Shown: positions 2,977 through 33,527, numbered from the stretch's first letter. The stretch is DNA of 36,595 nt from Thermoanaerobaculia bacterium (GCA_027067575.1 JAMOVQ010000109.1:1-36595); one strand, 5' to 3'. A program made the numbers and translations. Notes: generated by a model not told the origin, from the sequence alone.

Positions 2977-2982
2977 TAGTGT
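2977..2982 (+). promoter_or_regulatory. Candidate -10 element of the dodecin gene
   Basis: TAGTGT lies 35 nt before the dodecin ATG and directly after the terminator-like stem. It leaves a leader of about 29 nt that contains the GGGAGG ribosome binding site. No convincing -35 was found. Confidence 0.3.
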
Positions 2983-3017
2983 TGGAGGAAGTGACAGAGA
3001 CCATCGGGAGGTTTGCC

Positions 3018-3224
3018 ATGGGCGAGAAGGTGTACAAGAAGATCCGTGTGGTGGGGTGCTCCACTGAGAGCTACGAGAAGGCGATCGAGGCTGCCGTGGC
3101 GAAGGCGGCCGAGACGGTCGACGGGTTGGCCTGGTTCGAGGTCGTGGAGCACCGCGGCGCCATCGCGCACGGCGGGGTCGCCGAGTACCAGGCCACAGTC
3201 GACATCGCCTTCAAGGTGAACTGA
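3018..3224 (+). CDS. Dodecin family flavin-binding protein
   Basis: 68 residues from ATG 3018, the normal dodecin length. GGGAGG (3006-3011) is 6 nt upstream and decides this start over an upstream in-frame GTG at 2979. The family pattern is visible: KIRVVGCSTESYEKAIEAAV, then GLAWFEVVEHRG with the conserved flavin-stacking Trp39, then EYQATVDIAFKV. Dodecins form hollow 12-mers in the cytoplasm that sequester flavins. The gene appears to be its own transcription unit. Confidence 0.93.
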   Translation: MGEKVYKKIRVVGCSTESYEKAIEAAVAKAAETVDGLAWFEVVEHRGAIAHGGVAEYQATVDIAFKVN

Positions 3225-9042: not shown

Positions 9043-10005
9043 TCAGCCGAACAGGATGCCGAGGAGCGCCACGGTGTCGTCGCCGTCGGTGTCGCCGTCG
9101 GCGTCCATGTCACCGCAGGAGAACGGCCCGTGGCAGCCGATCTGTACGGCGAGGTCCCCTGCGTCGGCGTCGCCGTCCTGGTCGAGGTCGCCCGGCACGC
9201 CGGTGCCGCCGACGAGCTCCCGGGCCACCGCGTACCAGCCCGTCGCGATCCGGATCGAGCCGTCGGAGTTGAGGTGGCCGCCGTCCGAGCTGTAGTCGGC
9301 GTACAGCTTCTGGTACGTCTCGCCTCCGGACGTGAAGGTGACGGCGGTGCCGTCGGGCCGGTGGGCCTCCATGTCGGCGATGTCGAACAGGAGCTTCCCG
9401 TTGTCCCGGCAGAACTGGCGGACGGCGGCGTTGTACCGGTTCCTCAGGATGTTGTTGGAGTCCTCCGCGGTGGTCAGCGGCATGGTGGTGTAGACGAACC
9501 GCGTGGTGGGGTAGTCGTCCTCCAGGTCCTGCATGGTCTGGAGGTAGGTGGCCGCGTCGGCGTTCTGGTCGATGTAGCAGAGCTTGTCCATGGCGGCGTC
9601 CACGGCGGGCAGGTGCCAGCCCGAGGTCCGGACGGAGTTGTCGAAGATCTGGAACTTGGCGGACCAGCCGGGGTTCCCGCGTTGGCATTCGTAGATCGTG
9701 CCGGCCACGGTCGGTTCCGGCGGATCCTCGACCCGTTCCTCGCCCGACAGGTACGACACGGAGACCGGGTCGAGCTGGTAGCGGGTGGGGTCCGAGGAGT
9801 GGAGGGACTCCATCCCCGAGATGATGTTCCCGCCCACGGAGGCGTGGGTGAACAGCCACCGCTGCTGCCCGATGGCGTCCATGACGGACTGCGGGTACGA
9901 GGCCACGGCGTCGATGGCCCCGTGATCGACGATCTGGGCGGCCGCGGGCGCGGCAATGGCGGACGCTGCGAGCAACGCCGCGAAGAACGTGGACGAACGG
10001 CCCAT
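9043..10005 (-). CDS. Secreted SGNH/GDSL-like hydrolase with C-terminal dockerin-like repeats
   Basis: 320 residues with a signal peptide (ATG 10005; LLAASAIAAPAAAQ). GGGAGG sits 6 nt upstream of the ATG. The catalytic-type domain (about 25-265) has HASVGGNI at 54-61, a Ser-containing block I variant seen in some SGNH proteins, and DGGHLN at 241-246, which fits the Asp-x-x-His pair. Residues 272-316 carry two EF-hand-like calcium loops, DLDQDGDADAGDL and DMDADGDTDGDD, spaced like dockerin type I repeats. Family members are esterases or acetylhydrolases acting on polysaccharide substituents; the substrate here is unknown. No cohesin gene is in the window, so the repeats may simply be a calcium-stabilised tail. 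Confidence 0.75.
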   Translation of the reverse strand: MGRSSTFFAALLAASAIAAPAAAQIVDHGAIDAVASYPQSVMDAIGQQRWLFTHASVGGNIISGMESLHSSDPTRYQLDPVSVSYLSGEERVEDPPEPTVAGTIYECQRGNPGWSAKFQIFDNSVRTSGWHLPAVDAAMDKLCYIDQNADAATYLQTMQDLEDDYPTTRFVYTTMPLTTAEDSNNILRNRYNAAVRQFCRDNGKLLFDIADMEAHRPDGTAVTFTSGGETYQKLYADYSSDGGHLNSDGSIRIATGWYAVARELVGGTGVPGDLDQDGDADAGDLAVQIGCHGPFSCGDMDADGDTDGDDTVALLGILFG

Positions 10006-10130: not shown

Positions 10131-10357
10131 GCCGATCCGGCGTCCGCGGAGGGTGGCGGGACCTTGGTCCGCACCACGTCGACGAGCCCGCGGTCCGTCA
10201 GCCGCAGCTCGGAGATCACCTCGAGCGCCAAGGGAGAGGGGCACGAACGGGTCCCGCCCGGTCCCGGGTTCTGTGACTGCCTCTTCGCACTCACGGACGC
10301 CCCGGGCGGCTTCCTCGGCGGGGCTGGGCTCATCAGGCCCGCCACGGGCAGCGGCGG

Positions 10358-10363
10358 TATACT
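10358..10363 (+). promoter_or_regulatory. Candidate -10 element of the tat operon
   Basis: TATACT, 16 nt before the tatA ATG at 10380, with GGGAGG (10369-10374) 5 nt before the ATG. The -35 region has no TTGACA-like match. Confidence 0.4.
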
Positions 10364-10379
10364 GGCGCGGGAGGCCGGC

Positions 10380-10640
10380 ATGTTCGGTTCACTCGGGGTT
10401 CCCGAGCTGATGATGATCTTCGTGGTCGCGCTGCTGCTCTTCGGCCCGAAGAACCTGCCGAAGATCGGGAGGACGCTCGGGCGGGCCATGGCGGAGTTCC
10501 GCCGGGCCTCGAACGACTTCAAGCGGACCATCGAGGAGGAAGTCGCGGCCTCGGAGATCCGTGACGTCAAGCGGGAGATCGACGAGGCGGCCCGCGGCCG
10601 GTCGCCGGAGGGCGGCGACGGGGACGGTGCCGGTGGCTGA
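10380..10640 (+). CDS. tatA: Sec-independent translocase subunit TatA/TatB family
   Basis: 86 residues from ATG 10380, chosen because GGGAGG is 5 nt upstream. It has one short N-terminal membrane helix (VPELMMIFVVALLLFGP), then the hinge FGPKNLPKIGRTLGRAMAEF and an amphipathic helix, followed by a charged tail. This is the TatA/B layout that forms the pore for folded twin-arginine substrates. Only one A/B-type gene is present beside tatC, so it may serve as a bifunctional TatA. The tatC start codon overlaps its end. Confidence 0.92.
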   Translation: MFGSLGVPELMMIFVVALLLFGPKNLPKIGRTLGRAMAEFRRASNDFKRTIEEEVAASEIRDVKREIDEAARGRSPEGGDGDGAGG

Positions 10641-11415
10641 TCCGGCACCCGAGCTCGAGAGCGGTCCGGCGGAAGGGGGCGAGCTCCCGAAGATGACGCT
10701 CGTCGAGCATCTCGAGGAGCTGCGCCGCCGGCTCTTCGTCTCCCTGATCGCCGTGTTCGTCGGTTTCCTCGTCGCCTGGGCGTGGTCCCAGGAGATCTTC
10801 CACTGGCTGGAGGTGCCGATCCAGCAGTTCCTGGAGCCCGGCGACAAGCTGGCGTTCACGGCGCTGGCGGATCCGTTCATGCTCTACATCAAGGTGGCGC
10901 TGCTCGCGGGGATCTTCGCGGCCTCGCCCGTGGTGCTGCTCCAGCTGTGGTTGTTCATCCGGCCCGGCCTCTACCCCCACGAACGGCGGATGGTTCTTCC
11001 GTTCCTGTTCTTCACCACCGTGTTCTTCCTGGGCGGCGGCTATTTCGGGTACCGGGTGGCGTTCCCCATGGTGGTGCGGTTCCTGCTCGGGGTGGGCAAG
11101 GACTTCAAGCAGGTGGTGACGATCCAGTCGTACTTCGCCATGATGTCGAAGATCCTCCTCGGGCTGGGGCTCGTCTTCGAGCTGCCGATCCTCGTGTTCT
11201 TCCTGGCCCGGCTCGGGCTGGTGACGGCGCGGATGATGGTCCGCGGCCTGCGGTGGGCGATCCTGGCGATTTTCATCATCGCGGCGGTGATCACGCCGAC
11301 CCCGGACGTGGCCACCCAGACGGTGTTCGCGGTGCCCATGATCCTGCTGTACCTCCTCGGGATCCTCGTGGCGGCCGTGTTCGGCCGCAAGCGGCGGCCG
11401 GCGGACGGGGGCTGA
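10633..11415 (+). CDS. tatC: Sec-independent translocase subunit TatC
   Basis: About 260 residues. The start is GTG 10633 (or GTG 10627), overlapping the tatA stop. The signature MTLVEHLEELRRRLF precedes the first helix. Six hydrophobic helices follow, with the family loop IRPGLYPHERRM after helix 2 and FELPILVFFLARLGLVT later. TatC binds twin-arginine signal peptides in the inner membrane and works with TatA. Its TGA overlaps the ATG of the next gene (ATGA-type junction), so the TtcA-like and radical SAM genes belong to the same transcript. Confidence 0.95.
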   Translation: MADPAPELESGPAEGGELPKMTLVEHLEELRRRLFVSLIAVFVGFLVAWAWSQEIFHWLEVPIQQFLEPGDKLAFTALADPFMLYIKVALLAGIFAASPVVLLQLWLFIRPGLYPHERRMVLPFLFFTTVFFLGGGYFGYRVAFPMVVRFLLGVGKDFKQVVTIQSYFAMMSKILLGLGLVFELPILVFFLARLGLVTARMMVRGLRWAILAIFIIAAVITPTPDVATQTVFAVPMILLYLLGILVAAVFGRKRRPADGG

Positions 11416-12188
11416 TGGACCGCAGGCGGTGCGGCAAGGCGGCGGGCCGGCTGTTCGCGAAGGTCCGGCGCGCGTGCCTGCGGTGGGATCTGCTGCCGCC
11501 GGGGGAGCCGGTGGCCATCGGGATCTCGGGCGGACCGGACAGCCTGGCGCTGGTGGCGATGCTGGCCCGGCGGAACCGGATGCTCGAGGTCAAGAGCCGC
11601 CTCGTGGGGCTCCACGTGGCGCTCCGTGGGGACGGGGAACCGTGGAGCCTCCCGGAGGCGATTCGGGACTGGTGCCGCGAGCAGGGCGTCGAGGTCGAGA
11701 CCGTGGTGCCGCGGGTCGATCCCGGCGAGGCGTTTCCGATGACCTGTTTCCGGTGCGCGGGGATCCGGCGGCGCACGCTGCTGGAGGCCGCCGACGCACG
11801 GGGTTGCTCCCGTCTCGCGCTGGGGCACCACGCCGACGACGTGGTGGAGACGTGGCTGATGTCGCTGTTCTACACGGGGACGGGCGACGTGCTCCCGCCT
11901 GTGCGGAGCTACTTCGGTGGCGTGGTCACGGTGGTCAGGCCGATGTACGAGGCCCCGGCGCGGGAGATCCGGCGGGTCGCGTCGCTCTGCGGCTACCCCG
12001 TGGACCCCGTGCGGTGCCCGGTGGAGGGCTCGGCCAGGCGGAACAGGGTCCGGGAGGTTCTGGCGGCCCTCGGCCGCGACCAGCGCCGGGTCCGCCGGGT
12101 GCTGTTCCGGACGATCGTCCGGTCGTACGGAGCGCCGGCGGACGGGGTGGTAGAATCCGCGCCGGGAGGGGACGGATGGCGAGGTTGA
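11415..12188 (+). CDS. TtcA-like PP-loop ATPase (tRNA thiolation family)
   Basis: 257 residues. The ATP-binding PP-loop SGGPDS is at 38-43. A CxxC (C111-F-R-C114) and a further C201 occupy the places of the three Fe-S-ligating Cys of TtcA, and LGHHADDVVET is the usual family motif. TtcA adds sulfur to cytidine 32 of tRNA using cysteine-desulfurase sulfur and ATP. The layout fits this, but related Cys-bearing PP-loop proteins modify other targets, so the substrate is inferred. It overlaps tatC by 1 nt and the radical SAM gene by 13 nt. A partner role with that protein is possible. Confidence 0.8.
   Translation: MDRRRCGKAAGRLFAKVRRACLRWDLLPPGEPVAIGISGGPDSLALVAMLARRNRMLEVKSRLVGLHVALRGDGEPWSLPEAIRDWCREQGVEVETVVPRVDPGEAFPMTCFRCAGIRRRTLLEAADARGCSRLALGHHADDVVETWLMSLFYTGTGDVLPPVRSYFGGVVTVVRPMYEAPAREIRRVASLCGYPVDPVRCPVEGSARRNRVREVLAALGRDQRRVRRVLFRTIVRSYGAPADGVVESAPGGDGWRG
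12151..12156 (+). promoter_or_regulatory. Possible internal -10 element before the radical SAM gene
   Basis: TAGAAT lies inside the end of the TtcA-like gene, 19 nt before ATG 12176. It resembles the other -10 hexamers in the window but overlaps coding sequence, so it may be chance. Confidence 0.2.
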
Positions 12189-13501
12189 ACCCGGGCGAGC
12201 TGGAGATCGATCTGTTCTGCAAGGGGTTGCGGATCGACCCCTCGTGCCGGCTGGACCGGGACGCACGGCTGTTTTCGCGGACGAGGGCCGGTCTTGGGTC
12301 GGGACTGGAACTGATCATTCCCGGGGACCTCAAGGATATCTGGATGAACGCGCCGGTCGAGGAAGACTTCTGCGCCCTCTCGCCGTACTTCCTCCGGTGG
12401 GAGGAAGGGCGGGGCTACCACGTGGTGGACACGCGTTCAGACGAGGCGTACGACGTGACGATCCCGCCCCAGCCTGCGTGGTACGAGCGGACGACCTCGT
12501 CAGGGGTGCCCATGTCGCGGGTGGGTGTGCTCCAGGGGACGTACCTCGGCATCTACGTCTCCGAGGCATGCATGTTCTGGACTCCCCAGGAGAACGCGAA
12601 CTGCAAGTTCTGCACGTCCGGCGTCAACGTCGGCGTCAACGAGGTGACACGCAAGCGCGTCCGGGACGTGGTGGAGGTCGCCCGCGCGGCGAAGGAGGAG
12701 TCCGGCGTAACCTTCGTCCACTTCAACGCCGGGTACCAGTGGGAGGACCTGCCGGAGCACACCCGTGCCCACGGCCTCAACCGGGCGGCGCCGTTCGTCA
12801 AGGCGATCCGCGAGGAGGTCGGGCTGTTCACTGGAGTGCAGGTCGCCCCGGTGTTGCCGCGGGACCACTGGAAGTACGACTGGCTCGTCGAGCTCGGCGC
12901 GGACCATTTCTCGTTCTGCTACGAGTTCCACAACCCGGAGTACTTCGAGCGGTTCTGCCCGGGCAAGAAGCGCCACCTCGGTCAGGAGGCGTTCTTCGCC
13001 GCGCTGGAGTACACGTCGAAGCTGCTCGGAAAGGGCAAGGTCTCGGGCGAGATCATCGCGGGTCTCGAGCCGATCGAGGACACGTTCCGCGCGATCGACT
13101 ACATCACGTCGGTCGGCGCGTTCCCCACGGTCTGTATCTTCCGGCCGCTGATCGGTGCGGACCTGGAGCACTATCCGTCGCCCCCGTACGAGGACATGCG
13201 CCGCGTGTTCGAGCACGTGTGGCACGCCATGGTTCGGAATGGGATCCCCATGGAGATCGTGCCCAACATCGAGGTCAGCCTGGTGGTGCAGCCTGGTGAC
13301 GCGGCGTACCTCGTCGAGCGGGACCTGCGGTGGCGGGCGTACCGGGCGAAGAATGCCGTCCTGCGGTTGTTGGCAAGACCGCTCGTGCGCTGGAAGCTGA
13401 AACCCCATCCGGTCAGGGCCTCGGCGACGGACCACCCCAACCTCCCGCCGCGCCTGCCGGTGGCGGAAGGGGCCGAGCGCCGGGACGGGGAGGCGGCATG
13501 A
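12176..13501 (+). CDS. Radical SAM protein with atypical CX10CX2C cluster motif
   Basis: 441 residues from ATG 12176, with GGGAGGGG about 5-9 nt upstream. The probable [4Fe-4S]/SAM site is C132-x10-C143-x2-C146 (within YVSEACMFWTPQENANCKFC) instead of CX3CX2C. Downstream features suggest a TIM-barrel fold: FVHFNAGYQWEDL, VQVAPVLPRDHW, HFSFCYEFHNPEYFERF, EIIAGLEPIEDTFRAIDYI. Three early Cys (15, 24, 66) precede the motif. I do not recognise the subfamily or substrate. The gene overlaps the TtcA-like gene by 13 nt and the 140-residue unknown by 4 nt (ATGA), so the three are probably functionally linked. Confidence 0.75.
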   Translation: MARLNPGELEIDLFCKGLRIDPSCRLDRDARLFSRTRAGLGSGLELIIPGDLKDIWMNAPVEEDFCALSPYFLRWEEGRGYHVVDTRSDEAYDVTIPPQPAWYERTTSSGVPMSRVGVLQGTYLGIYVSEACMFWTPQENANCKFCTSGVNVGVNEVTRKRVRDVVEVARAAKEESGVTFVHFNAGYQWEDLPEHTRAHGLNRAAPFVKAIREEVGLFTGVQVAPVLPRDHWKYDWLVELGADHFSFCYEFHNPEYFERFCPGKKRHLGQEAFFAALEYTSKLLGKGKVSGEIIAGLEPIEDTFRAIDYITSVGAFPTVCIFRPLIGADLEHYPSPPYEDMRRVFEHVWHAMVRNGIPMEIVPNIEVSLVVQPGDAAYLVERDLRWRAYRAKNAVLRLLARPLVRWKLKPHPVRASATDHPNLPPRLPVAEGAERRDGEAA

Positions 13502-13920
13502 TCCGCCAGGTCGACCAGGAGCGCGCACTGGAGAGCGCTGCGGGGATTCCGGGCGGCGCGGCGGTGCTCGGGCGCTTGAAGGAGCGGAGCGAGCCGTTCG
13601 TCCTCGTCCCGGAGGGCGCGGGGCTGGAGTGGGGTGTGGCCAACGAGGTCAAGGGCGCCCCGAACCGTGCGCGCCTCAAGCTGTTCGTGCCGGAGGGGCG
13701 GGACGACATCGTGGTGCTGCTGGCGTACAAGACCTCGCAGGTCGAGTGGTCCCGCGACCGGTACGCCTACGGTGTCTGGGAGATTCCGGTGACGGACGGC
13801 GAGACGGCCATCGACCCGGCCGTTCTCGACACCTGGATCGACTTTCAGGTCAGCGGGTTCCACCCCGAGCGCCGTCCGGACACCCTCGTCCGCCAGATCT
13901 CCTACGACATCCCGGCCTGA
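13498..13920 (+). CDS. 140-residue protein of unknown function, coupled to the radical SAM gene
   Basis: 140 residues from ATG 13498, whose codon overlaps the radical SAM stop (ATGA). No signal peptide, membrane helix or Cys is visible. It contains NEVKGAPNRARLKLFVPEGRDDIVVLLAY followed by a Trp/Tyr-rich stretch (VEWSRDRYAYGVWEIPV), consistent with a small beta-rich cytoplasmic domain. I do not recognise a family. The tight coupling suggests an accessory subunit or substrate of the radical SAM enzyme, an inference from position only. A strong stem-loop follows 30 nt after the stop. Confidence 0.65.
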   Translation: MIRQVDQERALESAAGIPGGAAVLGRLKERSEPFVLVPEGAGLEWGVANEVKGAPNRARLKLFVPEGRDDIVVLLAYKTSQVEWSRDRYAYGVWEIPVTDGETAIDPAVLDTWIDFQVSGFHPERRPDTLVRQISYDIPA

Positions 13921-13999: not shown

Positions 14000-15142
14000 T
14001 CAGAGTCCGATTTTCTCGAGGATCCGATCCAGGGCCTCGAGCTCGCCGCGGGTGGTGTAGAAGTGGGGCGAGAACCGGACGAACCCTTCGCGGACGCTAC
14101 AGACGATGTGCCGTTCCGCCAGCCTTCTGACGGCCTCCGTGGGCTCCACTCGCGGGTGGCGGGCGGCCACGATGCCGGCGACGGGATGGCCCGGTCCTGG
14201 GGAGAACAGCTCCCACCCGTGGGCGATCAGGATTCGCATCAGCTGCCGTATGAGCATCTCGACGCGGGTCTGCACCACGTCCGTCCCGACCTGGGTGAGG
14301 AGGTCGAGCGCCGCGGCGAGCCCGGCGACGGCGGCTCCGTCTGCCGTACCCGGCTCGAACCGTCGGCCGTCGAGGTGAAAAGTGAGCTCCTGGAGGAAGA
14401 AGTCGTCCGGGCCGAGCCCGGTGTTCCGCCACCCGGCGAGGACCGGCCGGAGCTGCGAGCGGAACGCCGGGCGGGTGACGAGGAGCGCGATCCCCTCCGG
14501 TCCGAGGAGCCACGTGTGCGCGCCGGCGACCAGCGCGTCCACGCCAAGCGCCCGCACGTCCATCGGGAGGATGCCGAGACCCTGGATGGCGTCCACCACG
14601 AGGAACGCGCCGTTCTCGCGGCAGAGGGCCCCGAGCTGGGCCAGGGGCGCAACCCATCCGGTGTGGAACGAGACCCACGAGACGCTGACGATACGCGTGG
14701 CGGGCCCCACGGCCTTCGCGACATCCTCGAGGCGAACCCGGCCTCCGGGCTGCGGGAACCGGACGACCCGGACCCCGCGCCGTTCCAGAGCGAGCCACGG
14801 GGCGGCGTTGGCGGCGAACTCCTCGTCGCCCACGACGACCTCGTCGCCCGGCTGCCATTCGATCCCCTGGGCGATCAGGCTGAGGCCGATGCTCGTGGAG
14901 CCGACGATCGCCACGTCTTCCGGCGCCGCCGCCGTCAGCTCGGCGCCGAGGTGACGGCACGTCATCGCGTGATGGGCCCAGTCCTCCTCGGCGAGTCGCC
15001 CTGCGTTCTCCCGCTGGCCGATCCGTTCCCGCATCGCCTGGGCCACCGAGCGGGGTAGTGGTGAGAGCGCGGCGTGGTCGAGGTACAGACACCGGTCGCG
15101 CACGGGGAACTCGGGAAGCCAGCGGGTCAGGTCCAGCTGCAT
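14000..15142 (-). CDS. Class V aminotransferase / cysteine-desulfurase-fold protein lacking the PLP lysine
   Basis: 380 residues from ATG 15142. The fold-type I signatures are well preserved: YLDHAALSPLP, GSTSIGLSLI, WVSFHTGWVAPLAQL, VVDAIQGLG (Asp184 for the pyridine nitrogen) and VDALVAGAHTWLLGPEGIALL. In the last, families normally read HKW or YKW, with the lysine forming the PLP Schiff base; here codon 14513-14515 is ACG, giving Thr210. Only two lysines exist in the whole protein (143, 377), neither nearby. So either the enzyme is not a conventional PLP enzyme or the base is a sequence error (AAG to ACG is one change). Relatives include SufS/CsdA-like desulfurases and isopenicillin-N-epimerase-like proteins. 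It is convergent with the TtcA/radical SAM operon. Confidence 0.8.
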   Translation of the reverse strand: MQLDLTRWLPEFPVRDRCLYLDHAALSPLPRSVAQAMRERIGQRENAGRLAEEDWAHHAMTCRHLGAELTAAAPEDVAIVGSTSIGLSLIAQGIEWQPGDEVVVGDEEFAANAAPWLALERRGVRVVRFPQPGGRVRLEDVAKAVGPATRIVSVSWVSFHTGWVAPLAQLGALCRENGAFLVVDAIQGLGILPMDVRALGVDALVAGAHTWLLGPEGIALLVTRPAFRSQLRPVLAGWRNTGLGPDDFFLQELTFHLDGRRFEPGTADGAAVAGLAAALDLLTQVGTDVVQTRVEMLIRQLMRILIAHGWELFSPGPGHPVAGIVAARHPRVEPTEAVRRLAERHIVCSVREGFVRFSPHFYTTRGELEALDRILEKIGL

Positions 15143-23559: not shown

Positions 23560-26500
23560 TCACGGCTCCATCTCCCGGTACTGCCGCTGCCACTTGTTGT
23601 AGGTGCTCCACGAGATCCCCTTCGCCTCCAGGAGATGGCGAAGGTAGCGCAACTCGTCGGCCGGGTCGCGGTCATCGGGAGCGGGGGACATGGCCCAGGT
23701 CACCGCCTCGTCTACGGTGATGAAATGGTGGTCCTTCGCGATCCAGATCGGCATGTGGCCGAGAATCCGCCCGATGACGACGCCGGCAACGGCCGAACTG
23801 AGAACGGAGATGCCGATGGTGGCGGCGCTCGCCTCTCCGAGGCTCTCCATCAGCAGGACGTGCCGGTAGTAGCCGAAGTATGCCAGGTAGTTGATGTTGA
23901 ACTCGTTCCGGGCGGTGCGGAGCCATTCTGCCGCTCCCCGGTACGTGCCGGAGGTCGTGATCCAGCCGGAGAGACGCTGGCCCATCCCCACGAGGCCGGT
24001 GGATTCGGAGACCGCCGCGGTCTCGGCCTCGATGGCCGCAAGCTCCACGGGACCGCTCTCCAACGCGAAGTCCCGGGCGGTGTGCTCCATGATGGACATG
24101 CCGCTCTCCTTCAGGAGACGGGCGGCCCACTCGATGGGAACGTTGTAGCCCATGGTCTCCTCGACCAGGCCGCTCCCCATCCAGACCTGGTCCATGTACT
24201 GGGCCGCCTCGGGGTACACGGCCTCCAGGTACTGGGCGCTGACCGTTCCGTGGACGGCGGCGGCGTCCCGGAGGCCGAGCTGCACCCCGCGGAACGTCCA
24301 GTCCCAGGCGAACTCGTAGATCGCCGGGTCGGCGAGCATCTGCTCCTCGCCGGCGAGGCCCGTGGGGTCCACGTGGCCGATGGGGTCGCCCAGGGCGTAG
24401 GCGTACGGGTTCCCGGTGGCCGCCACGCCCAGCGGATCGGGGGAGAGGAACTGCCCGAGAGACGGGTCGTAGGCTCGGGCGCCCATGGCGGGGAGGCCCG
24501 AGGGTCCGGTCAGGACACCGATGCAACCCCCGAACCCGAACGGCACGTCCTGGAGTGTGCCCACCGTGGCGGTCGGGTTCCCGAAGGCGTCCCAGGAGCG
24601 CGCAAGGAGCACGGTTCCGGAGCCGCCGGTGATCACGGCGGCGTTGCCGCGCTCGTCGGGCAGGTACACCCGGATCCCGCCTCCGGCCTCCACCGAGTAC
24701 AGGAGGCGGCGGCCGGCCCAGACGTGCCGTTCCACCACTGAACCGGTGCCGTCCATCGTCACCACGGGGCGGCCGTCCAGCCGCAGGAACCGGAGGGTCG
24801 TGGCGCTTCCGGCGAGCTCCACCAGGTCGCCGGCCGGATCGTACCGCCAGGCGACGGTCTCGCCGTTGCGCTGGACCGTCGCCGGACGTTGGAGGGCGTC
24901 CCAGGTCACCTGGAGCCCCGGTGCGGCGAGCAGCGCCCCTGCCACGTCGTGGGTGACGGGAAGCGTCCCCCCGCCGCTGCTGACGCTCTCCAGGCGGTCA
25001 CCCGGCCCCCGGGCGAGCTCGATGGACCGCTCGGCCAGGGCCTCTGGCGCGCCACCCGTTCGGCGCACGGAGACGGTCCGTCCCGCGGCGTCCCTCGTGA
25101 TCTCGACCTGGAGGAGCAGGACGCCGCCGGGCCCGGTGTGGCGCAGGGAGGTCAGCGCGCCCCGGGCGTCGCGCCCGTACTCCGTCCGGACCCCTCCGGG
25201 CAGGTCGATGGCCGTCACGCGGTTCGCGGCGTCGTAGTGGAACACCGTGGTGTTCCCCGTCCAGTCCACGATCCGTTCGAGCCGTCCCGCCGTGTCGTAC
25301 CGGTAGTCCGCCGTCACGCCGCTGGGATACTCCAGGGCGTCGAGCCGGCTCCCCGGCGTCCAGCTGCTCCGGACCGTGTTCCCCCAGATCCCCGTGTGGG
25401 CCACGCGGCGGCCCATGAGGTCGAGGGCGTCGGTCACCGTCTCCCCGTTGCACGAGGCCGTCCGCGTCTCCCCGGAGCTCGAGAACGTTCGGGTGTAGTC
25501 GATGGTGCTGCCGTCGGGCAGGGTCATGGAGGTGACCTCGTCGTCCCCGTTGTACGTCCAGGAGAGCTGTCTGCCGTCCGGGAGCGTCCGGGAGATCAGC
25601 CTGCCCGCCCCATCCCAGGTGGAGCGGGTGACGGCCCCGGCCGGATCCTTCGTCTCCGTCACACGCCCGGCGCCGTCGTACGTCCAGCGCCAGGTGGACC
25701 CCTCTCCGTCGGTCAGGGCGAGGAGCCGGCCGCGGCTGTCCCGCTCGTGGAGGACATGGGCGCCGTCGGGAAGCTGGAGGCTCCTGATCTGCCCGTCGTC
25801 GGTGTGGACCTCCACGAGCTGCCGCCCCAGGGGGTCGGTCCGGACGATCCGGAGGCCGTCGTCGGAGTAGGCCACCGTGGCCCGGTTGCCCAGCGGATCC
25901 TCCGTCGCCGTCGGCCGGCCGTCCGCGTCCCACTCGAACGTCCATCGGGCGCCGTCGGGCTCCACGATGGCCGTCAGGTTCCCGTTGGCGTCGTGCTCGT
26001 ACCGGCGGTGGCCGCCGCCGGGCAGCACAATCTCCCGCCGGAGGCCCCGGTCGTCGTAGAGCCACGACGTCACCACGCCGTCGGGGTCGGTGCGGCTCGT
26101 CAGGTTGCCGTCCACGTCGTAGGTCATGTGGATCTCGCCGCCGTAGGCGTCGCGGACGGTGACGAGCTGTCCCGCGGCATCGTACGTCCAGGAGGTCGTC
26201 GCGCCTGTGGGGACGAAGGCCCGGGAGGTGACGTTCCCCTCGCCGTCGTGGGCGAAGGTCGTCCGGCGGCCCTCGGGCGTCTGGACCCATTCGAGGTTCC
26301 CGGCGAGGTCCCGGGAGAGCGTCAGGGTTCCGATGGAGCCGGGACGTTCGATGGACGACACGTGTCCCGTGGTGTCGTACCCCCAGGTGACGGTGTTCCC
26401 GAGCGGGTCCGTGACGGACTCCAGCTGGCCTCCCGCCGTCCATCCGAGTTCCGAAGGCCCCGGGTCTGCACCGTTGCGGATCTGGCTGACGCGTCCGTCA

Positions 26501-28680
26501 CCGTCGTACGCGAGGGTGACGTCCTCGCCCCCGGCGGAGGTCAGCCTTGTCGGCCGGCCATTCGCGTCCCACTGGAACTGATCCGACGCTCCCGACGGGT
26601 GGACGATCTGCGCCGGCCGTCCCGATCCATCCCGCACCAGGGTCGCAACGGCGCCGCCGGCGTTGACCACGGACTCGATCCGGCCGTTCGCGTCGCGGTT
26701 GAACTCCACCATCCGGCCTGCCTTGTCCACGATCCGCGCGAGATGCCCGTCCTCCCACGCGTACCGGGCCGTCTCGCCCAGGCCGTCCCCGGCGGCCACC
26801 ATGCGGCCCGCGGCGTTGTAGACGCGCCGCACCGTCCGCCCCGAGGGTGGGGTGACGGTAACCTCGAGGCCGCCGGTCCCCACGGGGGTGCGGGTGAAGG
26901 TCGTGGTCTGGCCGAGGGCGTCGGTTTCCGTGGCCACACGCCCCTGGGCGTCGTACGTCACGGTGAGAACCGTCTCGCCACGGCGGTCCTTCGCCGTGAG
27001 CATCCGGTGGGATCCGTCGTAGGTGTGCTGCCACGAGTGTCCCAGCGGATCGGTGATGGTGAGCAGGTTCCCGGAGGTATCGTAGGTCATGGCGGCGAGA
27101 TCGGACGCGGAGAGGGCCGCGCACCGGACGGCGGCCAGCCGCCCCGAGGCGTCGTAGGTGAAGTCGAACTGGCGGCCGAGTGGGTCGGTGACGTGGTCCA
27201 CGTGACCCGCGGCGTGGGTGACCGTCAGGGCGTCGCTCGTGCCGTCGGAGATCGCCAGCAGCGATCCCGAGGCATCGAACTCCGCGTCGAGGCCTCCGGG
27301 GAGGTGCAGCCTCACACCACCTCCTCCGGTGTCCTCGAGCGCCGCATCGGTGGCCCCCCCGGCGGGGGTCCATGGATCGCCGGCCTGGCCCCGTACGAAC
27401 CGCTGGACATGCCCGTCGGGGAAGGTCACGGAGGTGGAGGTCGCCCCGACCGTGGCCTTCATCGCCCAGGAGTGGGTCCAGCCGTGGCCCACGGGACCGT
27501 CGTCCCCCGCCTTCGCCGAGTTGTACGTCAGGGAAAGTCCGAACCCGAGGGTCCTCGTTGCGGGGAAGAAGCAGGCGGTGTGTATTGTGTGGAGGTTTCC
27601 CGTGTACGCGCAGACCGGGTCGTCCTCGTCGTCCGGCTGGTCCCCCAGGCGGTGGTCGGGGTCATCGGGCGTGTCGTCGGGGGTCATCACCAGATCGAGG
27701 CGTGTGACCGGAGGGGGGCTGGCGGGGAGATCCACGTGGGCGGCGGTTCCGGCATATCCCGGGTTGTGAGGGGTCACATCGTAGCTGCCCGGTGCCGGGG
27801 CGTGGATCAGATAGACCGCTTCGGGAGGATCGGTACGGTCGGCTCGGGAGCCCGAGGTGTCCGTGGCGATCACCGTCGCTCCCACGAGGGGCTCGCCCGT
27901 GTCCGATGCCGTCACCGTACCGACGATCACCGCACAGGGGCGGACAGTGTACGTCTCCGTCTCGCTGGCCGTGGCGGTGCCGCTGGAGGCGTGGACGGTC
28001 ACAGTGTACGTTCCGGCTTCGTGCCACTGGTGGGACACGGCCCTCCCGGTGGCCGTCGTGCCGTCACCGAACTCCCAGTCCACCAGGTCGGCGATGCCCG
28101 TGAACTCGAACTCCACCGTCTGGTCGCGGCAGACCGTCGTGTCGGGGGGGCCCCTGAAACCGGCCGTGGCACAACCCGTGATGGCGAACCGCTGTGAGGG
28201 CGTGGTGAACGGCCCTTCGTGTTGCGCGCCCCACACGGAAAACGCCAGAGACCCCTCGCCGCACCCGGTGACAAGGAACTCGAAGCTCGGGGTGCCGAAC
28301 CATGTCGGAGAGAACTCCCGGTACGGGTTCCATGTACACGTGCCACCGGCCGGACCACCGGTGGGGACGTCGGTGTAGTCCATGATCTCGTCGTCGATCA
28401 GGCACGGGAGGCCGGTCCAGCCGTAGTGGTCGAACCAGGCGCGAACGAGCTGGAGGCCCGACGGGATGGGATCCACCCCTTCCGATCCCCAGCCGTTGAC
28501 GGAGGTCCTGACGATCACGTGGCTTCCATACTCGACCGAGCCCGCAATGGAGAAGGAGAACCCGGCCGGATTGGGCTCGGAGGCCGAGCCGGGGAACGAG
28601 GCGGCCATCACGAGCACGAGCGCGAGAAGGCCGTGACCTGCGTCTCCGCGAGTGGGTCTGCCGATGGAGATGGAACGCAT
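23560..28680 (-). CDS. Giant secreted RHS/YD-repeat protein with a unique C-terminal tail
   Basis: 1706 residues from ATG 28680, with GGGAGG 5 nt upstream. In order: signal peptide (to about 34); a PKD-like domain (180-247, WEFGDGTTATGRAVSHQW then AGTYTVTV); a carboxypeptidase-regulatory-like domain (250-332); a DUF6531-like start of the RHS shell (about 356, GLSLTYNSAKAGDDGPVGHGW); about 25-30 YD repeats; and the RHS core end (DERGNAAVIT through GQFLSPDPLGV, NPYAYALGDPIGHVDPTG, about 1447). The 259-residue tail has no domain I recognise; it includes a hydrophobic segment (about 1619-1641). Such proteins encapsulate a variable toxin or effector. No obvious immunity gene follows. A -24/-12 element lies about 50-66 nt upstream. 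Confidence 0.9.
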   Translation of the reverse strand: MRSISIGRPTRGDAGHGLLALVLVMAASFPGSASEPNPAGFSFSIAGSVEYGSHVIVRTSVNGWGSEGVDPIPSGLQLVRAWFDHYGWTGLPCLIDDEIMDYTDVPTGGPAGGTCTWNPYREFSPTWFGTPSFEFLVTGCGEGSLAFSVWGAQHEGPFTTPSQRFAITGCATAGFRGPPDTTVCRDQTVEFEFTGIADLVDWEFGDGTTATGRAVSHQWHEAGTYTVTVHASSGTATASETETYTVRPCAVIVGTVTASDTGEPLVGATVIATDTSGSRADRTDPPEAVYLIHAPAPGSYDVTPHNPGYAGTAAHVDLPASPPPVTRLDLVMTPDDTPDDPDHRLGDQPDDEDDPVCAYTGNLHTIHTACFFPATRTLGFGLSLTYNSAKAGDDGPVGHGWTHSWAMKATVGATSTSVTFPDGHVQRFVRGQAGDPWTPAGGATDAALEDTGGGGVRLHLPGGLDAEFDASGSLLAISDGTSDALTVTHAAGHVDHVTDPLGRQFDFTYDASGRLAAVRCAALSASDLAAMTYDTSGNLLTITDPLGHSWQHTYDGSHRMLTAKDRRGETVLTVTYDAQGRVATETDALGQTTTFTRTPVGTGGLEVTVTPPSGRTVRRVYNAAGRMVAAGDGLGETARYAWEDGHLARIVDKAGRMVEFNRDANGRIESVVNAGGAVATLVRDGSGRPAQIVHPSGASDQFQWDANGRPTRLTSAGGEDVTLAYDGDGRVSQIRNGADPGPSELGWTAGGQLESVTDPLGNTVTWGYDTTGHVSSIERPGSIGTLTLSRDLAGNLEWVQTPEGRRTTFAHDGEGNVTSRAFVPTGATTSWTYDAAGQLVTVRDAYGGEIHMTYDVDGNLTSRTDPDGVVTSWLYDDRGLRREIVLPGGGHRRYEHDANGNLTAIVEPDGARWTFEWDADGRPTATEDPLGNRATVAYSDDGLRIVRTDPLGRQLVEVHTDDGQIRSLQLPDGAHVLHERDSRGRLLALTDGEGSTWRWTYDGAGRVTETKDPAGAVTRSTWDGAGRLISRTLPDGRQLSWTYNGDDEVTSMTLPDGSTIDYTRTFSSSGETRTASCNGETVTDALDLMGRRVAHTGIWGNTVRSSWTPGSRLDALEYPSGVTADYRYDTAGRLERIVDWTGNTTVFHYDAANRVTAIDLPGGVRTEYGRDARGALTSLRHTGPGGVLLLQVEITRDAAGRTVSVRRTGGAPEALAERSIELARGPGDRLESVSSGGGTLPVTHDVAGALLAAPGLQVTWDALQRPATVQRNGETVAWRYDPAGDLVELAGSATTLRFLRLDGRPVVTMDGTGSVVERHVWAGRRLLYSVEAGGGIRVYLPDERGNAAVITGGSGTVLLARSWDAFGNPTATVGTLQDVPFGFGGCIGVLTGPSGLPAMGARAYDPSLGQFLSPDPLGVAATGNPYAYALGDPIGHVDPTGLAGEEQMLADPAIYEFAWDWTFRGVQLGLRDAAAVHGTVSAQYLEAVYPEAAQYMDQVWMGSGLVEETMGYNVPIEWAARLLKESGMSIMEHTARDFALESGPVELAAIEAETAAVSESTGLVGMGQRLSGWITTSGTYRGAAEWLRTARNEFNINYLAYFGYYRHVLLMESLGEASAATIGISVLSSAVAGVVIGRILGHMPIWIAKDHHFITVDEAVTWAMSPAPDDRDPADELRYLRHLLEAKGISWSTYNKWQRQYREMEP

Positions 28681-28857: not shown

Positions 28858-30447
28858 TCAGCTGGGAGTGGGCGTTTGGGGAAGCGGGGCGGAGGTGATG
28901 AAGTGCCAGGGTGGGGGGCCGCCGTCCCACGGTCCGAGCAGCGGCTCGATCCGGTCGGCGTACCGGGCCATCGCGCGGGCCGGCGTCTCGCCCGCGGCGA
29001 GGGCCTCGAGGAGGGGGAAGGCCTCGACGCCGGCGCGGCCCAGGTACCCCTGCCAGCGGGCCTCACGGACCGAGGGCCGGTCGAGCCGGAACCCGGGCAG
29101 CCCGGTGAGGGCGCGTTCGATCCGCCGGAGGCGCCGGCGTGCCTCCCGGCGCTCGAGCATCCCCACGGCGTGGTACGGGGTGTACGGCTTCGGGACGAGC
29201 ACGTTGACGCTGGCCCGCAGCCACGGGCCCCCGCGGCCGGGCCTCGGGGTGGAGGCGCCGATCCGGTGGATCTCCCGGATCAGCCCGGCGATGGCGTCGA
29301 GGTCGCCGTCCGTCTCGCCGGGGAGCCCGACGATGAAGTACAGCTTGATGCCGGTCAGGCCGCACCGGAACCCCGTCTCCACGGCGGCCAGGATCGCCTC
29401 GTTGGTGATCGGCTTGCCGAGAGCCCGGCGCAGGGCGTCGCTGCCGGTCTCGGGCGCGATGGCGACGGAACGGGCGCCGGAGGCCACCAGCGGCTCGAGC
29501 ACCTCGGGCACCATGGCGGGGATCCGGAGGGAGGAGAGCGCCACGTCGAGGCCCGAGTCCACGGCGGCGGCGAGGATCCGCCCGATCTCCGGGTGGTCGC
29601 CCACGGCCGTGGCGACGAACCCGATCCGCGACGTGATGCGGGACAGCTCGTGGACGCGGGTGAGGATCGCCTCCGTGGCGTACGGCCGGAGGTTCCCGGC
29701 GGTGTGGCTGATCCAGCAGTACCGGCACGACTCCGGGCATCCCCGCGACATCTCCACCAGCCCGCGCGACCGGTACTCCGCCTCGGGCGTGACGGCGTGG
29801 GAGGCCGGGACGGCGTCCGGGGGGAGCGTCTCGAGCCGGCGCTTCTCGAGCCGGCGCAGCCGCCGGATCGGCCGTCCTGCGCCGTCGAGGTGCCGGGAGG
29901 GGACGAGGTAGCCGTCGCGGGAGGCCAGCTCGTCCAGGAGCGTCTCGCGGTCCGTGCCGTCGCGGAGCAGCTGGAGGACCGCGGGCCAGGTTCGCTCGGC
30001 GGCACCGAGGCAGAACACGTCCACTGCCGGGGCCAGGGGGAGGGGGTTGATCGTGGCCACCGAGCCGCCGAGGACCACGAGCGGATCGCCCGGCCTGCGC
30101 TGCTCGCGGCGCGGGGCGATCCCGGCGGTACGCAACATCCGGAGGACGTTCGGGGCGTCGGGCTCGAACGCCATGCTGAACGCCACGGCGTCGAACGCGG
30201 CGAGGGTGGCGCCCTCCTCCAGCGTGGACCCGAGGAGCGGCCCGTCGGCGAACGCCCGCTCCACACCGACGTCCGGCTCCCGCCCGGTCAGCTCCGTGAC
30301 CCACTGGAACGCCAGGGAGGCCATGGCCACCCGGTAGGTGTTCGGGTACGCCACGGCCACGCGGACGGCGCCGTGCCGCGGCGGCGTCACGCGGTACCGC
30401 TCGGAGTCGAGCAGCCGGTTCCGGAGCGTCCTCGCGTCGTCCCCCAC
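28858..30447 (-). CDS. B12-binding-type radical SAM protein
   Basis: 529 residues from GTG 30447. The N-terminal part (about 25-165) has the layout of a cobalamin-binding-like domain: VAVAYPNTYRVAM, VAFSMAFEPDAPNVLRML, PLVVLGGSVATINPLPLAPAV. The radical SAM domain follows with C237-x3-C241-x2-C244 (SRGCPESCRYC) and later VAIAPETGSDALRRALGKP and GIKLYFIVGLPGETDGDL, all typical of the YgiQ/TIGR03960-like class. No His in a DxHxxG B12 motif is clear, so cofactor binding is uncertain. The substrate is unknown. A TACCCT hexamer is 6 nt before the GTG and no ribosome binding site is present. Confidence 0.85.
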   Translation of the reverse strand: MGDDARTLRNRLLDSERYRVTPPRHGAVRVAVAYPNTYRVAMASLAFQWVTELTGREPDVGVERAFADGPLLGSTLEEGATLAAFDAVAFSMAFEPDAPNVLRMLRTAGIAPRREQRRPGDPLVVLGGSVATINPLPLAPAVDVFCLGAAERTWPAVLQLLRDGTDRETLLDELASRDGYLVPSRHLDGAGRPIRRLRRLEKRRLETLPPDAVPASHAVTPEAEYRSRGLVEMSRGCPESCRYCWISHTAGNLRPYATEAILTRVHELSRITSRIGFVATAVGDHPEIGRILAAAVDSGLDVALSSLRIPAMVPEVLEPLVASGARSVAIAPETGSDALRRALGKPITNEAILAAVETGFRCGLTGIKLYFIVGLPGETDGDLDAIAGLIREIHRIGASTPRPGRGGPWLRASVNVLVPKPYTPYHAVGMLERREARRRLRRIERALTGLPGFRLDRPSVREARWQGYLGRAGVEAFPLLEALAAGETPARAMARYADRIEPLLGPWDGGPPPWHFITSAPLPQTPTPS

Positions 30448-30453
30448 GGTGGA

Positions 30454-30459
30454 AGGGTA
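30454..30459 (-). promoter_or_regulatory. Candidate -10 element, leaderless spacing, of the B12-type radical SAM gene
   Basis: TACCCT on the minus strand is exactly 6 nt before GTG 30447. No -35 match. Confidence 0.4.
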
Positions 30460-30544
30460 GCGGGGTTCGTCCGTTCCTGCACGTGGACCCGGCCGGGGAT
30501 CAGCGGTTCAGGCGCTCCTGGCGGCGGTCCGAACGGTCAACCGG

Positions 30545-32494
30545 TCAGGAGAACGGGGTCCACCACTCGGGGTCGAGGAACGGGAACGGAAGATCGTCCC
30601 GGGCCCACAGCGGAAGGCGCTCCATCGTGGGCGGCGAGGCCAGGAGCTGCTGGAGCCGCCGGCGGTGCTCGGCGAACCGTTCTTCGGCGTAGTCCCGCGC
30701 GGCCCCCGTGGTGACGAGGAACGGCCAGTCGGAGGCGGCGAGGATCATCAGCTGGTTGAGGACGGCGCGCTTGTACGTCGTGGTCGCCGGCCGGCCGCAG
30801 GCGGCCTGGACGGCGAACTCCGAGGAAGCCAGCTCGTGCCACATCCACTCGGTGTCCGGGTTGACCCAGACGCGGTGGTCGCCGCCGTCGCCCCAGGACC
30901 CCTCGGGGAGGGCCATGCGCGTCGTGGGCGGGTCGGTCTCGAGGTAGCCACCGGCGGAGACGGGGGCGAGCAGCGGATGCGCGGAGGCCCGGCGGAGCAC
31001 GGCCTCCAGCCAGGCGGGCCCCTCGAACCACCAGTGCCCGAACAGCTCGGTGTCGAACGGGCAGACGGCCACACCGTCGTCGAGACCCGCCAGGTGGGCG
31101 ACGAGCTCGACGAAGTGCTCGGCCTGCACGGCGACGGCCTCGGCCGCCGCCTCGGGGTCGTACGGCTGCTTGTCCGCAAGGTCGGCGCGGGGGTGCGTCA
31201 CCCGCCACAGGCGCAGTCCGGAGGGCCAGTGGCGCTTGTGGAAGTCCAGATAGCGGGGGTCGCCGGGGTAACCGTAGTCCCGCGACCAGACCTGGAGGGC
31301 GGAGCGCGGCTCGCGGACGAAAGCCGCCACGGAGCTGGAGTCGATCAGGACGGGGTGCGCCACGGCGCCTTCCACGATCTCCGGGGCGGTGGCCGGATCC
31401 CCGCCCGACGACACGGTGGCCGAGCCGCCGAGGACGAGGTGGGTGTCCACGACGGTCCACCGGATGCCGTGCCGTTCGAGGAACGCCTCGACGCCGGGGC
31501 GCACGGTCTCGCGGGCCCCGGTGACCGGGTGCTGCCAGGGCCCTCCGGGCCGGTAGGCGCACTCGGGCATCCACGCGCCCATCGGGCGCCGCCCGAACAG
31601 CCGCTCGTGGAACGACACGGCGGTGGCGAGCTCGAGGTTGATCAGTTCCTGCGTGTGGGTCAGCGGGAGGTAGGCGTGGGTCGCGGCGCAGGTGGCCAGC
31701 TCCACGACCCCCTCGCCGGCGAGGTCGGCCAGGGCGCCCACGATGTCCCGGCCGATCCGCTGCCAGATCGTCGTCAGGCCGTCGTACCGGTCGGCCCACC
31801 ACGCGGCCAGTGGGGAGACGTGGATCGTCTCCCGGGCCGCCTTGTGCCGCTGGGCGAGGTAGCGGTCCACGAGGGATCGCGTCCGCGGGTCGGCGAGCTG
31901 GGAGGCGAGCACGGGGGTGACGGAGATCGTCAGCAGATCCCGGAGCCCCTCGCGCCGGAGCCGGTCGAGCACGTCGACGAGTGGCAGGTAGCAGTGGACC
32001 ACGGCCTCGGCCAGCCAGTCCTGCCCGTGGGGCCAGGTGCCGTGGCCCAGGACCCACGGCAGGTGCGTGTGCAGGATGAACGTCAGCTTTCGGGGCCGGG
32101 CGGAACCGGTCACGGGGATCGGCGAGCGGACCTCGGCCTCGGTGATCGCGGGGCGGTGCGCGGCCTCGGGGCCGGGTTCGGTGGGGTGGGGTGGGGCCGC
32201 CGGGCCATCCTCCTGGGACGTCCGTCCCGGACCGCGGTCCGGGACCGCTGCGGCCTCACCTGCGGTGGTGGAACCGGTGGCCGGGACACTTCCCGTCGTC
32301 TCGGTGCTCGATGCCGCAGGCTTCCATGCAGCCCAGCGGCGGACGGTGGAAAGGGCGAGACCGAGCCGTCCGGCGGCGGCGCGGAGGTCTCCCCCGAGGC
32401 GGTCCACGGTTTCCGCGATCTCGGCCCGGGCCGCGTCGCGGACCGCCGCGTTCCGGCTTCTCAGGCGCCGGGAGATATCGTTGGTCTCAGGCAT
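30545..32494 (-). CDS. GH57 1,4-alpha-glucan branching enzyme with an N-terminal helix-turn-helix
   Basis: 649 residues from ATG 32494, with GGAGG 5 nt upstream inside galT; it overlaps the galT stop by 8 nt. Residues about 25-56 form a Fis-like helix-turn-helix (AEIAETVDRLGGDLRAAAGR then LGLALSTVRRWA). A Pro/Ala/Glu-rich linker (57-134) joins it to the GH57 domain. The latter has HTHLPWV, GAWMPECAYRPG with catalytic-type Glu311, and PFDTELFGHWWFEG with Asp481, the GH57 branching-enzyme signatures. It would form alpha-1,6 branches in glycogen-like glucan. The DNA-binding-like head on a metabolic enzyme is unusual; it might bind a partner or DNA, or be vestigial. Confidence 0.88.
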   Translation of the reverse strand: MPETNDISRRLRSRNAAVRDAARAEIAETVDRLGGDLRAAAGRLGLALSTVRRWAAWKPAASSTETTGSVPATGSTTAGEAAAVPDRGPGRTSQEDGPAAPPHPTEPGPEAAHRPAITEAEVRSPIPVTGSARPRKLTFILHTHLPWVLGHGTWPHGQDWLAEAVVHCYLPLVDVLDRLRREGLRDLLTISVTPVLASQLADPRTRSLVDRYLAQRHKAARETIHVSPLAAWWADRYDGLTTIWQRIGRDIVGALADLAGEGVVELATCAATHAYLPLTHTQELINLELATAVSFHERLFGRRPMGAWMPECAYRPGGPWQHPVTGARETVRPGVEAFLERHGIRWTVVDTHLVLGGSATVSSGGDPATAPEIVEGAVAHPVLIDSSSVAAFVREPRSALQVWSRDYGYPGDPRYLDFHKRHWPSGLRLWRVTHPRADLADKQPYDPEAAAEAVAVQAEHFVELVAHLAGLDDGVAVCPFDTELFGHWWFEGPAWLEAVLRRASAHPLLAPVSAGGYLETDPPTTRMALPEGSWGDGGDHRVWVNPDTEWMWHELASSEFAVQAACGRPATTTYKRAVLNQLMILAASDWPFLVTTGAARDYAEERFAEHRRRLQQLLASPPTMERLPLWARDDLPFPFLDPEWWTPFS

Positions 32495-33527
32495 CGGTGC
32501 CTCCGTCGGGGTCGGCGTCGCGGAGGAAGCGTGCGGCCTCCTCCGGCGGTGTCGGGTTGATGGTGAACCCCGAGCCCCACTCGAACCCGGCGATCCGGGA
32601 GATACGGGGGACGATTTCCAGGTGCCAGTGGAAGTCGTACTCCAGCGTCGTCCAGTCATCGGGGTGGCCGGGACGGGGGTGGGGGCTCGGTGCAGTGTGG
32701 AGCACCATGTTGAACGGCGGGTCGTCGAGCAGTGCCCGGAGCCTCCGGGCCACGTCCACGACGATGGAGGCCAGCGCCCGGAGCTCGGGCTCCGGCGCCG
32801 CCGCGAAGTCGTGCATGTGGGTCCGGGGAAGGATCCACGTCTCGAACGGGAAGCTCGAGGCCCAGGGGGCGAGAGCGACGTACCGCGGCGACTCCAGGGC
32901 GATCCGCTCGCCGTGTTCGAGCTCCATCCGGATGACGTCGCAGAACAGGCACCGTTCCTTCCGGCGGAAGTGGCGCCTGCAGGCGGCCAGCTCCTGCGTG
33001 ACGAACTCGGGGATGATCGGCGTGGCGATCAGCTGGGAGTGAGGGTGGGCGATGGAGGCGCCGGCCTCGAGGCCGTGGTTCTTGAACAGCAGGATGTACC
33101 GCAGGCGGGTGTCGTTCCGGAGGTCGAGCAGGCGAGTCCTCCACGCCTGGAAGATTGCCTCGACCTCCCACGTTTCCATGTCGGCGAGCTCCCGGTCGTG
33201 GTCGGGGTGCTCGACGATCACCTCATGGGCCCCAACGCCGGAGATCGAGTCGTACGGTCCGTACCCCCGCCGTTCGATCGTTCCCTCCACGCGGAGCGCC
33301 GGGAACTTGTTCGGCACGACCCGGACCTGCCATCCCTGCCCGTCCGGCCTCGGGATCCGCAGGATCTCCGGGGGGGTCAGCGACTCTCGTCCCGGCTCGA
33401 AGGGGCATCGCGAGGGGTCGGGCGTGGCGAGAAAACGCGGCCGGATCAGCTCGTGCGGGCGGAGGCGGCGTTCCGGCGCCACGATCACCCATCGGTTCCG
33501 GATCGGATCGAATCGCAGCTCGGACAT
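32487..33527 (-). CDS. galT: Galactose-1-phosphate uridylyltransferase
   Basis: 346 residues. The ATG at 33527 abuts the stop of the preceding GH57 gene (TAG-ATG, zero gap). The active site AHPHSQ (HxHxQ) is intact, NKFPAL and ISGVGAHEVIVE are family signatures, and FHWHLEIVPR is near the end. GalT exchanges UMP between UDP-glucose and galactose-1-phosphate. The zinc-ligand CxxC reads C41-P-F-E44, so the second Cys is Glu; a second CxxC (CLFC) lies after the active site. In this operon it may act on another hexose-1-phosphate feeding glucan or mannose metabolism. Confidence 0.92.
   Translation of the reverse strand: MSELRFDPIRNRWVIVAPERRLRPHELIRPRFLATPDPSRCPFEPGRESLTPPEILRIPRPDGQGWQVRVVPNKFPALRVEGTIERRGYGPYDSISGVGAHEVIVEHPDHDRELADMETWEVEAIFQAWRTRLLDLRNDTRLRYILLFKNHGLEAGASIAHPHSQLIATPIIPEFVTQELAACRRHFRRKERCLFCDVIRMELEHGERIALESPRYVALAPWASSFPFETWILPRTHMHDFAAAPEPELRALASIVVDVARRLRALLDDPPFNMVLHTAPSPHPRPGHPDDWTTLEYDFHWHLEIVPRISRIAGFEWGSGFTINPTPPEEAARFLRDADPDGGTDA

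Follow-up and report, generated by a model that had tools for sequence, protein, structure and literature searches.

The 36,595-nt stretch of DNA analysed here (hereafter the window), from the 3.08-Mb acidobacterial genome of a Thermoanaerobaculia bacterium, carries at positions 12176-13920 a genuine two-gene module that is conserved across phyla. Its first gene encodes an atypical radical SAM enzyme of the NF045502 variant_rSAM group (P0002, 441 aa; 12176..13501, + strand) and its second a small partner protein of an unnamed family (P0003, 140 aa; 13498..13920, + strand). We estimate at roughly 0.5 the probability that the two products form a two-part radical SAM system whose partner either binds the substrate or performs a second step. 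The original prediction had grouped both genes with the TtcA-like PP-loop ATPase gene that touches them upstream (P0001, 257 aa; 11415..12188, + strand) in a three-gene cassette abutting tatC. All of its coordinates hold: the end of tatC at 11415 coincides with the ATG start of the ATPase gene (TGATG), the ATPase and radical SAM genes overlap by 13 nt, and the radical SAM and small genes by 4 nt. That all three open reading frames are real genes follows from their homologs across whole genomes, those of the second and third being found in several phyla. They are not, however, one machine; the ATPase belongs to the preceding block and only the other two genes are a real pair.

All three proteins were used as queries against 199 genomes of the phylum and the complete set of 37 from the order, the neighbourhoods were fetched and their genes called with a codon-usage caller; those relatives that carry a name are metagenome-assembled Acidobacteriota, one of them a Thermoanaerobaculia. 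Of the 29 genomes from Acidobacteriota, Planctomycetota, Latescibacterota and Eisenbacteria on which the pairing count is based, 24 have the small gene and the radical SAM gene side by side on one strand. The linkage that the original prediction expected across genomes was thus borne out for these two genes and failed for the ATPase, which is linked to tatAC instead. Both gene orders occur, suggestive of a link kept through rearrangement. In the window and five relatives of its family, the enzyme gene comes first and the small gene overlaps it by 4 nt; G405 has the enzyme gene broken across two contigs, with the small gene after the second part. The pair is also present in three further acidobacterial families, Latescibacterota, Planctomycetota and Eisenbacteria; three of these loci have the small gene ahead of the enzyme gene. 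Searching 392 genomes of Planctomycetota returned the small gene in 12, always beside the enzyme gene (12/12), its position in two of these loci having been taken from a profile match as the gene caller had missed it. The window's family comprises six genomes with both genes, none with either alone and 14 with neither. Over the phylum, enzyme homologs were found in 8 of the 9 genomes with the small gene compared to 44/199 overall (Fisher p 2.5e-5, not corrected for relatedness).

Of the five exceptions to adjacency (5/29), four come from a single acidobacterial family (f10) and the fifth is genome G247. In f10, the small gene lies after aroF-cysS, and the same site or its vicinity carries the enzyme gene in two other genomes of this family. 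G247 encodes a degenerate small-protein homolog (L134:2227-2655) devoid of K78, S85, D87 and R88, and no radical SAM enzyme of this group was found in its genome; the only homolog to lack these four residues comes from a genome where the enzyme was not found. A search for the enzyme also found none in G109 (94% complete), whose partner is intact. The enzyme is the commoner of the two (44 versus 9 of the 199 genomes) and stands without the partner in many genomes, among them those of the sister family f69 and of an entire deep clade. In a tree of 55 enzymes, the partner-bearing rows all fall in one of two deep clades, where they are intermixed with partner-less ones such as those of f69. This topology would fit an old pairing with several losses. 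Since the enzyme is kept without the partner, the core radical step cannot depend on the latter in every lineage.

P0002 scores above the curated cut-off of the NCBIfam model NF045502 (178.8 versus 125 bits), while its match to Pfam Radical_SAM reaches 14.6 bits against a cut-off of 29.5. Its cluster motif is C132-X10-C143-X2-C146 (12569..12613, + strand), and the three cysteines are present in 55/55 homologs. The spacing is X10 in 47 of these, X11 in six and X9 in one, with one unparsed; all parsed rows thus read CX9-11CX2C rather than the classical CX3CX2C. C248 and C320 are equally invariant (55/55), as is C15 in all 51 rows that reach this N-terminal position. The structural model of the enzyme (pLDDT 78.2, with low confidence in the cluster and SAM loops) matches the complete-barrel folds of LipA, BioB, HydE, NifB, MqnE and PylB with Z scores of 13.7-17. 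The closest solved folds are those of lipoyl synthase, biotin synthase, HydE and NifB (best Z 15-17), from which the enzyme differs in its cysteine spacing and with which it shares 10-17% identity. LipA has an N-terminal CX4CX5C motif and BioB a set of [2Fe-2S] ligands; the enzyme has neither.

The enzyme is a sibling of NitD (MSMEG_0568, TIGR04043) from the Nit1C nitrilase cluster, with 27-28% identity over about 80% of the length and the odd motif in common, in the form CX9CX2C in NitD and CX10CX2C in the window enzyme. It falls below the TIGR04043 cut-off (109.4 versus 303.7 bits), does not have the CGKCGAC with which NitD ends and possesses the three cysteines C15, C248 and C320, which NitD lacks. 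None of the Nit1C neighbours (nitrilase, GNAT acetyltransferase, AIR-synthase-like protein) was found among the window genes, either by scanning with models or by inspection of the translations. NitD was placed near the 'biotin synthase-related' COG2516 by Podar et al. 2005 (PMC1199592), and we infer that the window enzyme belongs to COG2516. As far as the account in PMC11049912 goes, it does not settle what NitD does in cyanide assimilation clusters. We found no reaction assigned to the variant_rSAM/NitD group, and a literature search under the family identifiers returned no description of this enzyme family. Plasmid matches of the enzyme were NitD relatives, and no relatives were found in viral contigs.

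The small protein has no match in Pfam, NCBIfam, PHROGs, PADLOC or PDB sequences, and no relatives were found in phage or plasmid records; a defence system was rejected as there was no PADLOC match. The alignment of 29 sequences reveals a signature Y/F-K-x-S-x4-S-x-D-R-[FY]-[AS]-Y-G at residues 77-92 (13726..13773, + strand), in which S80, Y91 and G92 are constant (29/29) and K78, S85, D87 and R88 are present in 28/29, changing only in the degenerate G247 copy or in one row. R57, P127 and P139 are also unchanged over the 29 sequences. The AlphaFold model built from 15 sequences (pLDDT 88.5, pTM 0.85) is an alpha/beta structure with a five-stranded sheet, two helices and a further helix at the C-terminus. 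The invariant polar residues map to the start of the first, the end of the second and the start of the third of the predicted strands 58-63, 71-79 and 88-97, an order that would bring them to a shared sheet edge if the strands pair as hairpins. By this strand order, about ten polar residues that are invariant across phyla appear to cluster at one edge of the sheet. The Foldseek comparison proposed earlier gave no convincing solved relative (E above 0.4 for all PDB chains; no match at E 0.001 in the PDB and viral fold libraries), the missing match being no proof of a new fold. The best structural row is frataxin/CyaY (4jpd; VIA Z 6.0, rmsd 3.3, 84 residues), a Z score in the range of common or chance arrangements. 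Frataxin homology was rejected as a structural hint only (hhalign probability 0.2%, no Pfam match); canonical frataxin is encoded by 19/149 genomes of the phylum and was not found in the window's own.

Because these invariant polar residues appear to cluster, the small protein looks like an enzyme or a ligand-binding protein rather than a docking subunit. A putative basic/polar site would comprise R57, K61, K78, S80, S85, D87, R88 and R132, and the combination of such a compact, mostly basic site with a radical SAM enzyme suggests a reactive product that is then bound or finished by the partner. In the chemistry that we envision, C132, C143 and C146 would hold a [4Fe-4S] cluster that splits SAM to the 5'-deoxyadenosyl radical, which would act on an anionic small molecule or nucleic acid; C248, C320 and C15 may form an auxiliary-cluster site or serve as hydrogen-atom donors. 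The partner site would bind the substrate or an unstable radical product and complete the reaction, by analogy with MoaA and MoaC. MoaC is a small enzyme that acts after the radical SAM enzyme MoaA, on the MoaA product. What the two systems would have in common is the succession of a radical SAM enzyme and a small enzyme; no similarity in sequence to MoaA or MoaC was found for either window protein.

Another possibility, which we hold to be unlikely though the strongest of the alternatives, is that the small protein, without catalysis of its own, serves the radical SAM enzyme as a docking or activating subunit, a role comparable to that of the peptide-binding partners of RiPP radical SAM enzymes. 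The close pairing with 4-nt overlaps would agree with such a role, as would the fact that the partner is dispensable in several lineages. Its absence there nevertheless speaks against a subunit that the radical step could not do without, the neighbourhoods contain no recurring peptide-like small open reading frame, and the invariant residues are polar or charged and apparently grouped at one sheet edge. The original prediction had favoured an accessory or docking subunit, which the near-invariance of R57, K78, S80, S85, D87, R88, Y91 and G92 makes less likely than an active or ligand-binding protein.

It is rather improbable that the small protein is itself the substrate, with the enzyme modifying or activating an invariant Ser, Lys, Tyr or Gly, despite the one-to-one pairing and the constancy of S80, Y91 and G92 in all sequences. 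The enzyme is often kept without its partner, and the conserved residues describe a dispersed site rather than one modified motif. The original prediction had argued from the lack of Cys in P0003 that it is not a Cys-modified substrate. The lack of Cys was confirmed for the window protein and is a local trait, many homologs having one to four unconserved cysteines; the argument holds, as the family has no conserved Cys.

Slightly more doubtful still is a role of the pair in the synthesis of the molybdenum cofactor or another pterin-type compound. This possibility stems from an operon-like run rSAM-small-comM(YifB)-moaC-mogA that recurs in Planctomycetota (L265-L274, e.g. L267:2778-7085) and hints at molybdenum-cofactor chemistry; upstream of the enzyme gene lies a divergent gene for a C-terminal processing peptidase. 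moaC occurs in the fetched flanks of 8/12 partner-bearing loci and mogA in five, some of them tightly packed. The arrangement is nonetheless restricted to one phylum, and as the peptidase gene and comM are retained too, it may represent inherited gene order; neither moaC nor mogA lies near the pair in Acidobacteriota, and no moaA model was listed for P0002 at E up to 1 in NCBIfam. In related Planctomycetota (L269, L271, L272), the pair is followed by elongation factor P and preceded by an asparaginase gene. The clues to the substrate indeed conflict, pointing to moaC/mogA in Planctomycetota, to aroF-cysS in one family, and to radical SAM/SPASM genes resembling AhbD or TIGR04053, which lie near the gene of the variant enzyme in four Acidobacteriota genomes from three lineages (L079:7409-8572; L093:1796-2947; L086:12570-13697; L088:13205-14200).

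The joint chemistry attributed to all three genes by the original prediction, a sulfur insertion such as thiolation of an RNA (tRNA) or peptide or thioether formation, is very improbable and was rejected on gene neighbourhoods: the genes do overlap in the window and all six window-family genomes with the enzyme also carry the ATPase, but in seven relatives the latter lies in tatA-tatC-ttcA at a distance from the pair, the pair is missing from two genomes that have the ATPase, common descent of the family genomes alone may explain the co-occurrence, and outside the family the pair has no linked ATPase. The block in question begins in the window with tatA (10164..10640, + strand; Pfam TatA_B_E at residues 77-126), the listed TTG start of which is probably too far upstream as the domain begins near residue 77, followed by tatC (10627..11415, + strand; Pfam TatC, 235 bits). 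In 7/7 family relatives that have it, the ATPase gene occupies the third position of tatA-tatC-ttcA; in these seven it is never beside the radical SAM gene and mostly has further genes of its own behind it, and two of these genomes contain no radical SAM gene of this kind. The presence of both genes in the six family genomes says little, as these are close kin. tatC is the true operon partner of the TtcA-like gene, whose contact with the radical SAM gene would result from the chance joining of two operons in this genome. Pfam and NCBIfam identify the ATPase as a PP-loop protein nearest to TtcA, the tRNA 2-thiocytidine(32) synthetase, which is its best NCBIfam match (98.6 bits, under the curated equivalog cut-off of 272). 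The PP-loop (SGGxDS, S38-S43) and the three cluster cysteines of TtcA (C111, C114, C201) are kept and invariant in seven aligned proteins. Judged by these motifs, it is an ordinary TtcA-like tRNA-sulfur enzyme, distinguished from TtcA in being a fixed partner of tatAC in this family. Thus, a 13-nt overlap in one genome comes without shared function, next to a 4-nt overlap that comes with it.

We note several other features of these neighbourhoods. A dodecin gene lies head to head near the enzyme gene in family relatives (L171:6816-7022, L178:7754-7960, L133:7502-7708); that of the window (2979-3224) is 9 kb from the enzyme gene. Genes with a CxxCH motif account for 16/357 genes within four genes of the enzyme compared to 3/444 in 36 other readable stretches of enzyme-carrying genomes (p 6e-4); they are not clearly fewer farther along the same loci (4/203, p 0.16). 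This comparison was made post hoc and some of the 16 genes do not encode cytochromes, such that a cytochrome link to the enzyme is a lead only. A SufS/EgtE-like PLP enzyme is encoded convergently with the small gene in the window (14000-15142, - strand); in G078, a gene of this type lies on the same contig as the pair about 6 kb off, a distance at which it is probably unrelated to the pair. Elsewhere in the window, all on the - strand, are genes for a 320-aa secreted-looking protein with no Pfam match and dockerin-like DxDxDG repeats at its C-terminus (9043-10005), a 1706-aa RHS-repeat protein with PKD domains (23560-28680), and a second radical SAM protein (Radical_SAM_N2 type) beside two GH57 family glycosyl hydrolase genes (28858-35528).

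Tentatively, and with less confidence than we place in a two-part system as such, the pair may represent an undescribed radical SAM pathway found in several phyla with few cultured members. Small enzymes of a new family, which would have a new active site and might have a new fold, would there complete the reaction of a variant radical SAM enzyme to yield a cofactor or a modification. A partner with fixed, likely active-site residues provides a handle on the chemistry of the variant_rSAM/NitD group; it could be co-expressed with the enzyme, and may reveal the substrate.
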